From assembly GCF_020515625.1 (NCBI RefSeq), contig NZ_JAIWPJ010000002.1, forward strand, positions 868,001 through 932,000: a stretch of DNA of 64,000 nucleotides, read 5' to 3'. The notes under the pieces were generated by a model, which made no database searches, was not told the origin of the DNA, and saw only the letters and a list, made by a program, of their open reading frames with translations. Shown in pieces: positions 12,955-52,972 of the stretch (its first letter is position 1; each line of letters opens with the position of its first letter). Both the position numbers and the translations under genes were made by a program. This stretch comes from Natrinema amylolyticum (GTDB lineage: Archaea; Halobacteriota; Halobacteria; Halobacteriales; Natrialbaceae).

Positions 12955-12978
12955 AACGGGCGTGGCGGGATTCGAACC
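12955..12978 (-). repeat. tRNA-Arg 3'-end fragment (T-arm plus acceptor strand)
   Basis: The 24 bases here are identical to 13061-13084, the 3' end of the neighbouring tRNA-Arg gene (T loop, 3' T-stem, 3' acceptor strand, discriminator and two flanking bases). The rest of the tRNA is absent, and the 5' T-stem is changed. It lies about 85 bp downstream of the real tRNA in the same orientation. Confidence 0.85.
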
Positions 12979-12982
12979 GCCT

Positions 12983-13010
12983 GAACGTCGCTCACTTCGT
13001 TCGCTCGTTC
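12983..13010 (-). repeat. Tandem G-A hairpin between tRNA-Arg and its 3'-end copy
   Basis: On the minus strand a 5-bp stem GAACG/CGTTC is followed by a small asymmetric bulge, GC/GC, tandem GA/GA mismatches, AC/GT and the triloop GAA. It has the same plan as the hairpins downstream of tRNA-Lys. Confidence 0.6.
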
Positions 13011-13062
13011 CGTGCTTCGAATCTCCGTGCCCGTTCGCTCGTCGCGTCCGCTCCTCGCAGAA

Positions 13063-13135
13063 CGGGCGTGGCGGGATTCGAACCCACGATCAGAAGGTTA
13101 GGAACCTCCTGCCCTGTCCGCTAGGCCACACGCCC
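13063..13135 (-). tRNA. tRNA-Arg (anticodon CCU)
   Basis: Cloverleaf on the minus strand. The acceptor stem is GGGCGTG/CACGCCC with discriminator G, the anticodon stem GGAGG/CCTTC encloses loop TTCCTAA giving anticodon CCU (codon AGG), and the T arm contains GTTCGAATC. No intron and no encoded CCA. It is 73 nt long. Downstream is a partial copy of its own 3' end. Confidence 0.95.
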
Positions 13136-13498: not shown

Positions 13499-13750
13499 CC
13501 TTTTTGGACCACTAAGGTAAGCAAGCGGCCGCGACAGTCCGTTTGCGGACGAAATTCGCCCAAAGGGACAGTGTACTGTTTGCTATCCGATGACTACGGC
13601 TGATTTTAGTGATCCGACGGGCGTATATCTGACTGCGAACGCGGCCGCGCGGTCGTCGACCCTGACCGTCTCGAGGTGCCTGCGTACGCACGCCGCGCTT
13701 CGCTTCCGATAACGAAACTGTCTTTCGGGGTTACACGCAATGATGAGACG

Positions 13751-14230
13751 ATGGTAACAACTGGAGATGCCGCACCCGACTTCACCGCACCGCTCGCAAA
13801 CGGCGATATCGAGGAGTTCACGCTCTCCGAGCGCCTCGCGGACGAGGCACCGGTCGTCCTCGCGTTCTTCCCCGGTGCCTTCACCGGCGTCTGTACGACC
13901 GAAATGTGTACGTTCCAGGACCGCCTCGCCGCGTTCAACGACCTCGACGCCACCGTCTACGGCGTCAGCCGCGACTCGCCGTTTACCCTGAACGAGTTCC
14001 GCGAGCAGAACGGCCTCGAGTTCGGCCTCATCAGCGACTACAACAAGGAGATCATCGACGACTACGGGCTGTCGATGGACTTCGCCGACCTGGGCGTCCA
14101 CGGCGTCGCCAAGCGCTCGGTGTTCGTCATCGACGGCGACGGCGAGATCGCTTACTCGTGGGTCAGCGACGACCCCGGCGTCGAACCCGACTACGACGAG
14201 GTCGAGGCCGCGGTCGAAGACCTCTCCTAA
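13751..14230 (+). CDS. Peroxiredoxin (AhpC/TSA family, AhpE/Bcp-like)
   Basis: Thiol peroxidase that reduces hydrogen peroxide and organic peroxides. 159 residues, a thioredoxin fold. The peroxidatic Cys lies in FFPGAFTGVCTTEMC, the canonical PxxxTxxC environment, with a second Cys four residues later. RSVFVIDGDGEIAYSW is the conserved late strand. No obvious C-terminal resolving Cys, so 1-Cys or atypical 2-Cys chemistry. ATG 13751 gives the standard N-terminus (VTTGDAAPDF); the frame runs 25 codons further up without support. Confidence 0.92.
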   Translation: MVTTGDAAPDFTAPLANGDIEEFTLSERLADEAPVVLAFFPGAFTGVCTTEMCTFQDRLAAFNDLDATVYGVSRDSPFTLNEFREQNGLEFGLISDYNKEIIDDYGLSMDFADLGVHGVAKRSVFVIDGDGEIAYSWVSDDPGVEPDYDEVEAAVEDLS

Positions 14231-51105: not shown

Positions 51106-51179
51106 GGGCCGGTAGCTCAGTCCGGCAGAGCGTCTGACTCTTAATCAGACGGTCGCGTGTTCAAATCGCGCCCGGCCCG
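51106..51179 (+). tRNA. tRNA-Lys (anticodon CUU)
   Basis: Acceptor stem GGGCCGG/CCGGCCC with discriminator G, D arm with AGCTCAG, anticodon stem TCTGA/TCAGA around CTCTTAA giving anticodon CUU (codon AAG), and T arm with GTTCAAATC. 74 nt, no intron, no encoded CCA. Two partial copies of its 3' end follow within 260 bp. Confidence 0.96.
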
Positions 51180-51180
51180 C

Positions 51181-51212
51181 TTTTGCCACGAGCAAATTCG
51201 CGAGTGGCAAAA
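51181..51212 (+). repeat. 9-bp hairpin with tandem G-A apex directly after tRNA-Lys
   Basis: TTTTGCCAC and GTGGCAAAA are perfectly complementary. The 14-nt apex is GA-GC-AAATTC-GC-GA. Starts 2 nt after the tRNA, so it may define the 3' trailer or terminator. Confidence 0.75.
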
Positions 51213-51277
51213 CGGTCATCGCGATTTGAATCGCAGGGAACACGCAGCGCGAGCGAAGTGAGCGACCGTGTGACCAT

Positions 51278-51300
51278 GTGTTCAAATCGCGCCCGGCCCG
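51278..51300 (+). repeat. tRNA-Lys 3'-end fragment, copy 1
   Basis: 23 bases identical to 51157-51179 (T loop, 3' T-stem, 3' acceptor, discriminator). The T-loop part is preceded at 51220-51230 by its perfect 11-nt complement CGCGATTTGAA, so the fragment is the right arm of a larger hairpin. Confidence 0.85.
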
Positions 51301-51304
51301 ATTT

Positions 51305-51334
51305 CCTGCTGCGAACAATATCGTGAGCAGCAGG
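51305..51334 (+). repeat. 8-bp hairpin with tandem G-A apex after tRNA-Lys fragment 1
   Basis: CCTGCTGC and GCAGCAGG with apex GA-AC-AATATC-GT-GA. Same layout as the 51181 hairpin although the stem sequence is unrelated, and the inner pair has changed from GC/GC to AC/GT with pairing preserved. Confidence 0.75.
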
Positions 51335-51375
51335 TCACGGATCCGAAGGGATTTGAAATAGACGAGTCGAAGCCC

Positions 51376-51398
51376 GCGAGCGAGTGTAACGAGCGAGC
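51376..51398 (+). repeat. Hairpin alternating 2-bp stems and tandem G-A pairs
   Basis: From outside inwards: GC/GC, GA/GA, GC/GC, GA/GA, GT/AC, loop GTA. All 23 bases obey the pattern. Confidence 0.7.
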
Positions 51399-51415
51399 AG
51401 GAACGTCTCGGCGTA

Positions 51416-51436
51416 GTTCAAATCACACCCGGCCCG
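51416..51436 (+). repeat. tRNA-Lys 3'-end fragment, copy 2 (diverged)
   Basis: GTTCAAATCACACCCGGCCCG differs from the tRNA at two positions in the T-stem. Its T-loop TTCAAATC pairs with GATTTGAA at 51350-51357. The region 51180-51478 has no protein gene. Confidence 0.8.
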
Positions 51437-51478
51437 CCTCTATGAGGGACACCGTAACGAGCGAAGCGACCAGCGCAG

Positions 51479-52972
51479 TTACCGATCGTCGCGCACACCG
51501 TCCGGGAACTCGTTGTTCGCGAGCGACACGGACCCCGAGTCGCTCGTGATGCGGAGGGAGTTGCCGGCCTCGAGCGACCGGCCAGAACAGTTCTCGATCC
51601 GGACCCCGCTCCCGCCGTTAACGACGATCGGCGTGTGGGTCGTCTCGAACTCGCTGTCGGCGACGAGATAGTCCTCGCCCCGAAGTTCGAGTCCGCGCCG
51701 CTTGTCGTCCCCCGGCTGGTTGACCGAGAGGTTCACGAACCGACAGTCGTCGCGCTCGCAGTAGATCGCGTGGCGGTTTCTGGTCCCCGGTGCGTCGCCG
51801 GTGATGCGAACGTCCTCGATATCGGCACCGGGGCCGTCCCCGCCAAGTAGCCGGACCGCGTTGGCGCTGCCGTGAATCTCGATGTCGGTGTTCTCGACGG
51901 TCAGCGGTCCGGCAGCGGGATCGAGCCGGATACCGGTGTTCGGTCGGTGCCCGACCGTGATCTCCGAGTCCGAAATCGTCGCTTCCTCGACGTCGTTCAT
52001 GACTCGTATCGCGTCGCCGTTCGGCCGCGGGACGTCGACGGTGACGCCCTTGAGTTCGAATCGCGCTCCGCCGTCGAGCCGGATCGCGTGCTGCCCGTTC
52101 GCACCGTGCGGGTTCTCGGTGACGGCGGCGACCGCGTCCCTGATCACACCGACCGAACCGGCGAGGCGGATCGACGCGGTGGCGCTGTTCTCGAACCAGC
52201 CGCCGTCGACGTCGATTCGTCCGGTCTCGTTCGACGCGTACAGCCCGTTGTCCGGGAAGCCGCCGAGGCTACAGTTCTCGAAGACGAGCGTTCCGCGATG
52301 GGTTCCGTTGACCATGATGCCGGTCGGGCCGCGCCACATGTTCTCCTCGTTGGGGGTCTCGTCGACGTGGACGCCGCCGTCCGACGCGCGGAAAGAGTAG
52401 ACGTGCCCCTCGCCGTCGGAGTCGAGGACGTTGAACAGGCCCGGCCCCCACGTCCCGCTGTCGTGGACGCCGCGGATCGTGACCCGCCGCACGGAGAGCC
52501 CGTCCTCGACCTCGGCGCTGATGACTCGAATCCCCGTGTCGTCGGCGGTCTGATCGACGTCGAAGTTCTCGAACCGGAGGTCGCGGCCGGGCCTATCGCT
52601 CGTCCCCAGCCGGAACAGTCGATACTGCGGCCCGTCGAACTCGTGGTAGCTCGCCGGGACCAGCGTCGCGTCCTCGCCGACGAACCCGACGTTCTCGAAG
52701 TCGGTGAACCGCAGTTGTTCGTCCATGTAGTACCGCCCCGCCGGGAACTCGAGGAGCGTGTCGTCGTCCACGAGGTCCCGCAGGACGGGCGTGACGGACT
52801 CGTTCCCCTCGTTGTCCGCCCCTTCCTCGACCACGTCGACGACGGTCCGGTAATGCTCCTCGAGCGGGTGTGCGGACGCCACGCCCGCGATCGAAAGTAC
52901 CCCGAGTCCGGCGAGACCGCTCAGATACGATCTGCGCCCGATCTGCCGACTGCGTGAATCGTCTGAAGTCAC
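51479..52972 (-). CDS. Tat-exported right-handed parallel beta-helix protein
   Basis: 497 residues. N-terminal Tat signal (IGRRSYLSGLAGLGVLSIAG, cleavage after ASA), then a long chain of short beta-helix coils rich in Asn, Asp and Gly (LVFENCSLGGFPDNGLYASN, TVENTDIEIHGSANAVRLLG, RIENCSGRSLEAGNSLRIT). Such folds are pectate-lyase-like, used in polysaccharide lyases, hydrolases and adhesins. No catalytic signature is recognised. Expected at the cell surface or outside. Its 3' end abuts a GTAAC/GTTAC inverted repeat downstream of the tRNA-Lys repeats. Confidence 0.85.
   Translation of the reverse strand: MTSDDSRSRQIGRRSYLSGLAGLGVLSIAGVASAHPLEEHYRTVVDVVEEGADNEGNESVTPVLRDLVDDDTLLEFPAGRYYMDEQLRFTDFENVGFVGEDATLVPASYHEFDGPQYRLFRLGTSDRPGRDLRFENFDVDQTADDTGIRVISAEVEDGLSVRRVTIRGVHDSGTWGPGLFNVLDSDGEGHVYSFRASDGGVHVDETPNEENMWRGPTGIMVNGTHRGTLVFENCSLGGFPDNGLYASNETGRIDVDGGWFENSATASIRLAGSVGVIRDAVAAVTENPHGANGQHAIRLDGGARFELKGVTVDVPRPNGDAIRVMNDVEEATISDSEITVGHRPNTGIRLDPAAGPLTVENTDIEIHGSANAVRLLGGDGPGADIEDVRITGDAPGTRNRHAIYCERDDCRFVNLSVNQPGDDKRRGLELRGEDYLVADSEFETTHTPIVVNGGSGVRIENCSGRSLEAGNSLRITSDSGSVSLANNEFPDGVRDDR

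Follow-up and report, generated by a model that had tools for sequence, protein, structure and literature searches.

A family of small gene-less DNA units behind the tRNA genes of haloarchaea

Behind the tRNA-Lys(CUU) gene of Natrinema amylolyticum, the 3' end of the tRNA recurs twice, each time following a complement of its own T loop and a hairpin, raising the question of whether this array is an integration scar, a structured RNA or a product of DNA insertion. The window, by which we mean the whole 64,000-nucleotide stretch analysed (contig NZ_JAIWPJ010000002.1, positions 868,001 to 932,000), contains this array and a second one behind tRNA-Arg(CCU), with the following features (strand and supporting evidence given for each):

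51106-51179, + strand: tRNA-Lys(CUU), anticodon CTT (Rfam RF00005, 51106-51179; ARAGORN, 51106-51180)
51180-51219, + strand: unit 1, T-rich start and hairpin A (TTTTGCCAC..GTGGCAAAA, tandem GA inside) (sequence, DNA and RNA folds)
51220-51230, + strand: unit 1, inverted T arm CGCGATTTGAA (sequence, family statistics)
51231-51279, + strand: unit 1, hairpin B (TCGCAGGGA..GACCATG type) (sequence, foot consensus over 206 units)
51280-51300, + strand: copy 1 of tRNA-Lys nt 53-73, exact (sequence comparison, shuffle test)
51301-51349, + strand: unit 2, hairpin A (CCTGCTGC..GCAGCAGG) and spacer (sequence, folds)
51350-51357, + strand: unit 2, inverted T arm GATTTGAA (sequence)
51358-51415, + strand: unit 2, hairpin B (TAGACGAGTCG..CGTCTCGGCGTA type) (sequence, folds)
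51416-51436, + strand: copy 2 of tRNA-Lys nt 53-73, two mismatches, older (sequence, shuffle test)
13063-13135, - strand: tRNA-Arg(CCU), anticodon CCT (ARAGORN)
12957-13062, - strand: one unit behind tRNA-Arg, comprising hairpin A, inverted T arm (13023-13016), hairpin B and copy of nt 53-73 (12977-12957) (sequence)

The segment recurring at tRNA-Lys is nt 53-73 of the tRNA (51159-51179), and units follow a single order: tRNA 3' end, hairpin A, inverted T arm, hairpin B and again the tRNA 3' end. The original prediction had placed the recurring ends at 51278-51300 and 51416-51436, preceded by T-loop complements at 51220-51230 and 51350-51357, and all four were found at these positions, the identity of copy 1 with the tRNA running back to 51278. 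Shuffling the 260 nt downstream 2000 times with dinucleotides preserved never yielded such a copy or two GATTTGAA sites, and no other copies of the tRNA-Lys end were detected in the 64 kb (22-mer, up to three mismatches). The G-A hairpins predicted between these parts are present and, beyond what was claimed, a second conserved hairpin, hairpin A, lies directly 3' of the tRNA end (51181-51214 in unit 1, of a hairpin class found over 198 units, and 51304-51334 in unit 2). The tRNA-Arg locus shares this plan, as had been proposed. Past the last tRNA-Lys copy lies another GA-rich inverted repeat (51437-51480), which may be the remnant of a third unit.

Analysis of other loci revealed that the plan is widespread. 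Within the window's own genome, 46 tRNA loci were read and many carried one to four units, with copies specific to the tRNA concerned, whilst across three genomes units were located behind approximately one third to one half of the tRNA genes examined. When counted more strictly, arrays stood at 16 of 45 tRNAs in this genome and 14 of 41 in G055; G115, which belongs to another family, had them at 15 of 29. Arrays range overall from one to five units, five being found at tRNA-Ser(UGA) of G115, and the units, of around 100 bases (nearly all 40-180 bp), are gene-less. The motif GATTYGAA-N20-50-GTTCRAATC was detected in 58 of 61 relatives, compared with no matches to the reversed control pattern in those genomes. 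Consistent with the suggestion that such a scan would recover the plan at other haloarchaeal tRNAs, the motif was present in 52 of 53 haloarchaeal genomes versus 8 of 242 others from a sample of the whole phylum, and these eight had only one or two matches each, equivalent to chance level. A stricter motif run over 84,980 species identified at least 120 loci, nearly all haloarchaeal among the matches listed. Of the 128 matches listed in named genomes, 123 were directly behind a tRNA (117 where the tRNA's own end is the copy, six with a decayed copy), with four at the edge of a stretch and one attributable to chance. A Methanomassiliicoccales assembly (L261, 6500-7050) contained two units of the same plan behind one tRNA-Ser, which include a copy of the 5' acceptor strand.

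Across the family, the copy starts abruptly at nt 52/53, with an identity of 0.73 at nt 52 and 0.18 at nt 51. Every copy class, including the last, is followed by a T-rich profile like that after the real tRNA end (T at approximately 0.5 per position against a background of 0.18), as if each copy had once been the end of the gene. At five loci (L219, L232, L236, L049 and L063), the distal copies at tRNA-Lys, -Arg and -Thr were repeatedly GTTCATAATC, sharing one additional T in the T loop. The feet of hairpin B are conserved over 206 units (5' foot YAG, 3' foot CGT(R)), whilst the stem between them is variable. In the same 206 units, the inverted T arm pairs with nt 54-61 and nt 62-64 far above shuffled expectation and stops at around nt 65, matching the host tRNA at nt 62, 63 and 64 in 162, 139 and 123 units versus 102, 90 and 51 when shuffled. 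It tracks odd host T loops, such as that of the initiator tRNA (GTTCGATTC with GAATCGAA) and that of a tRNA-Lys (with GTTCAACTC). At positions that distinguish the tRNA from its distal copy, the inverted T sides with the tRNA in 26 cases and with the copy that it precedes in 8; compensatory change between inverted T and distal copy was looked for and not seen, agreement being with the tRNA instead. A gapped comparison showed that the inverted T also matches nt 71 and 73, and in G022 hairpin A of tRNA-Gln lies at the centre of a perfect palindrome formed by 21 bp of the tRNA end. For these two reasons, the inverted T is best read from its sequence as an inverted copy of the whole tRNA end, decayed outside the T arm.

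How such units arrive is illustrated by tRNA-Gln, the one case for which empty and filled sites were aligned in detail. In G018 and G008 the bare tRNA is followed by native sequence, whereas G021 holds an exact insertion of 102 extra bp, made up of an 81-bp unit and a 21-bp copy of nt 53-73, with 363 of 425 flanking positions identical between G021 and G018. The target duplication is uniform at the tRNA end (21 bp, nt 53-73). Within this genus, tRNA-Gln(UUG) also has an intron in some species (L465-L477) that is absent from others (L457-L464).

Comparison across species further demonstrated that hairpin modules are shuffled and common to different tRNAs, with the tRNA copies remaining host-specific. 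At tRNA-Lys in 29 congeners, hairpins occur in many combinations, with switches at the T or inverted T, and hairpin B of unit 2 of the window is also present in G014, G007 and G026. A 28-nt hairpin A (up to two mismatches) recurs in 15 of 61 genomes, always 3' of a tRNA end or its copy in the loci examined, with hosts including tRNA-Lys, -Ser, -Gln, -Asp, -Thr, -Arg, -Val, -Met and other tRNAs. A whole long hairpin common to different tRNAs within one genome was clear once, where an almost identical 72-nt hairpin A stands behind tRNA-Val and tRNA-Leu, each with host-specific tRNA copies. Together, the empty and filled sites and the sharing of modules indicate that the units are DNA insertions. 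Their presence and number vary freely between close species. At some tRNAs they are persistent rather than patchy, with a unit or remnant in nearly every one of the 29 congeners at tRNA-Lys, and a host function could be an alternative meaning. The tRNA-Met(i) locus of the window's own genome (C2:27533, L056) has a segment of about 950 bp between tRNA copies (approximately +225 to +1175), with one antisense gene that is metallo-beta-lactamase-like by eye, and ends in an inverted-T/hairpin-B unit; this segment looks like a rare gene-bearing cassette.

We therefore consider it probable that these are small gene-less DNA elements that insert at the tRNA 3' end, with folded single-stranded DNA as their working form. 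Insertion would leave the tRNA intact and place a duplicate of nt 53-73 on the far side. Based on the decay of distal copies and the terminator-like T-tract after each copy, newer units would enter beside the tRNA and displace older ones outward, with arrays growing as stacks. The sense strand between the copies, running from hairpin A through the inverted T to hairpin B, could adopt a dumbbell shape, upon which the replication machinery or a recombinase, the tyrosine type being the likeliest, might act, with the universal GTTCRAATC of the T arm as crossover point, as an integron integrase does with a folded attC site. A recombinase of this kind would account for the conserved, strand-specific hairpins.

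A rather less likely explanation dispenses with a dedicated enzyme. Host template switching or ectopic recombination would copy units from tRNA to tRNA using GTTCRAATC and the T-tract as microhomologies, and hairpin-templated repair would keep the inverted T in step with the host tRNA. Template switching at GTTCRAATC best accounts for both flanking copies always being host-specific even as the hairpins are common to different tRNAs. At tRNA-Gln of G022 the 21-bp palindrome is perfect and the distal copy has two mismatches, which indicates that the tRNA-side copy served as template for the inverted T. Further in its favour, the deletion and swap junctions among the tRNA-Lys congeners fall at the T or inverted T, repeat-mediated deletions have been described in Haloquadratum (PMC3119063), and no enzyme was found for the units. 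On its own, however, host copying leaves unexplained both the tandem G.A pairs confined to one strand of the hairpins and the conservation of the 28-nt hairpin A across families. Two mechanisms remain, a recombinase acting on the folded sense strand and host template switching at GTTCRAATC, and we favour a folded single-strand intermediate.

The composition of the hairpins bears directly on whether the folded molecule is DNA or RNA. Under a scoring scheme alike for both strands, hairpin mismatches comprised 551 G.A versus 42 C.T, and tandem 5'-GA/5'-GA was counted 175 times on the sense strand versus a single TC/TC. For hairpin B, the sense-strand fold was the better in 105 of 111 cases; in the units of the window itself the two strands give folds of similar quality, the strand bias being a property of the family. 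Given this bias in G.A and tandem GA, the sense strand is under structural constraint, yet it lacks the wobble tolerance expected of RNA: G.T pairs showed no excess over A.C in the hairpins (83 versus 118), where structured RNA should have G.U above A.C in its stems. The inverted-T pairing at nt 62-65 was similarly balanced (77 G.T versus 69 A.C), in contrast to 47 versus 1 in control tRNA T stems treated alike. Tandem sheared G.A pairs are stable in single-stranded DNA as well. The lack of G.T preference coupled with tandem G.A on the sense strand points to folded single-stranded DNA rather than RNA pairing, and suggests that this is the form in which the units work.

A functional RNA, in which the tRNA transcript would continue into the unit and its structure would control processing, termination or small-RNA release, is accordingly improbable. 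It would be in keeping with hairpins lying on the sense strand, with the annotation of the similarly arranged RtT repeats of Escherichia coli as a small RNA and with the retention of units across a genus. Against it stand the absent wobble preference and the free variation in unit presence and number between close species, as well as the terminator-like T-rich stretch directly 3' of the tRNA, which argues against much read-through. In addition, no Rfam family matched the units, the RtT model (RF00391) included. The same wobble evidence led us to reject base pairing at the RNA level between the anti-T segments and the tRNA's T arm as their mode of action. Of the initial interpretation, the organised, repeated plan distinct from integrase scars is upheld, whilst the RNA pairing with the T arm is not. 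A weak match of 27 nt was observed between hairpin B and the end of a Kitasatospora linear plasmid (L366, 201-227), about 140 bp from the terminus; this recalls fold-back telomeres and is only suggestive.

Very improbable is the view that the units are ordinary scars, left when elements that encode an integrase and target tRNA 3' ends (of SNJ2 type or otherwise) lost their interior. Such elements do occur at the same tRNAs, with copies at +1.8, +2.9, +6.2 and +34 kb, but two full elements of the window's own genome and element ends at other tRNAs were devoid of hairpin A, inverted T and hairpin B, and their repeats extend further into the tRNA than nt 53. An architecture this uniform, present at over 100 tRNA loci across many genera, would not be expected from random deletions either. 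The original prediction would have fallen had the fragments been ordinary scars next to integrase genes, and an att-site origin was rejected here, given that the ends of the integrase-bearing elements inspected differ from the units. Some of these elements sit between the tRNA and an older array (for example, L306). At tRNA-Ala of the window's own genome (C1:1453707), an integrase element has probably separated tRNA and array: 17 kb past the tRNA, units of tRNA-Ala type stand alone as an orphan array (L074, C1:1470953), probably displaced by a mobile element that inserted at the tRNA.

Least probable of all is a casposase/Cas1-like enzyme generating the duplication at the tRNA end, or an IS200/IS605-like (Y1) transposase performing single-strand transposition guided by base pairing. 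In its favour, tRNA 3' ends are also the target of casposases, whose duplications span 14-15 bp (PMC6977970) as against a uniform 21 bp for the units, and the stacked insertions resemble CRISPR arrays. The order guide, hairpin, site of the units recalls the ends of IS605 elements. Against it, the units lack terminal inverted repeats. Cas1 (PF01867) was not found in 20 of 29 genomes of the genus, including G021 with its filled site, G022 and G000, and Y1 transposase (PF01797) was not found in the unit-bearing G021, G001, G055 and G058; on these two results, either was rejected as a resident, required enzyme.

Searches for an autonomous element with the same ends, or for a recombinase gene tied to the units, returned none. 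In viral, plasmid and phage collections, the only haloarchaeal viral contig among the matches listed was L108 (IMG/VR, classed as viral), where tRNA-Glu is followed by a unit (13744-13930), possibly as host flank or as a virus-borne tRNA. Among the G+C-rich matches listed by the viral scan, most were bacterial tRNA-Ser variable arms.

No description of the unit plan was found in the open-access literature, and the units, which follow at least a third of the tRNA genes in the haloarchaeal genomes considered, seem so far undescribed as a family. They supply a concrete, testable example of essential genes taking up insertions unharmed. They may also be an archaeal instance of recombination through single-stranded DNA, and their arrays keep a record of one insertion after another. 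A further caution is that many 'partial tRNAs' lying close to complete ones in haloarchaea may have an origin other than viral scarring.

Partial tRNAs have previously been assigned to att sites of mobile elements or to CRISPR (PMC9897764). In Haloferax gibbonsii, 11 partial tRNAs were reported, several adjoining the full copy (PMC7921747); these probably represent the same phenomenon, with no unit, hairpins or inverted T described in the parts of that account considered here. The PATEs and SMRs of Haloquadratum are likewise transposase-free, hairpin-bearing small repeats of haloarchaea (PMC3119063), but they are dispersed and lack a target duplication, whereas the units are found only at tRNA ends and duplicate 21 bp.

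By analogy, the units are best read as working somewhat like integron attC cassettes. Their inverted outer boxes (GATTYGAA/TTCRAATC) parallel the AAC/GTT boxes of attC (attC features, PMC2727003), enclose a variable terminal hairpin and are accompanied by strand asymmetry, with one strand carrying a G that seems to lack a partner (AG opposite CGT); module shuffling and insertion in tandem are further points in common. Unlike integron cassettes, the units almost never hold a gene, such that a strict gene-cassette integron was rejected; their conserved boxes are tRNA-derived, and their target is any tRNA rather than an attI site beside an integrase.

The nearest known system sharing this common plan is the 178-bp RtT (rttR) repeat of E. 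coli tyrT/tyrV. There too, tandem units behind a tRNA each end in a copy of the tRNA 3' end, with GA-rich hairpins and a 10-nt inverted T arm (GGGGAAGGAT) inside, a complement of 10 nt being reached in 9 of 5000 shuffles, and copy number is variable (1-11 places per genome, median 3). The haloarchaeal units thus resemble RtT in their copy, inverted T and tandem GA hairpins and differ in lacking a match to RF00391. RtT, for its part, is bacterial and confined to one locus, has the longer, 178-bp unit, a close copy that starts near nt 59, an interrupted inverted T and an annotated short ORF (tpr) and sRNA. More speculatively, and less likely than not, the units would make up a new kind of cassette system, in which haloarchaeal tRNA genes serve as landing sites for minimal cassettes devoid of genes. 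These would travel as single-stranded DNA folded into a dumbbell and recombine at the universal T-loop sequence, guided by a self-made inverted copy of the tRNA end, and E. coli RtT would be a bacterial outlier. The family also offers a way of interpreting the RtT repeats behind E. coli tRNA-Tyr, which have long lacked an explanation.
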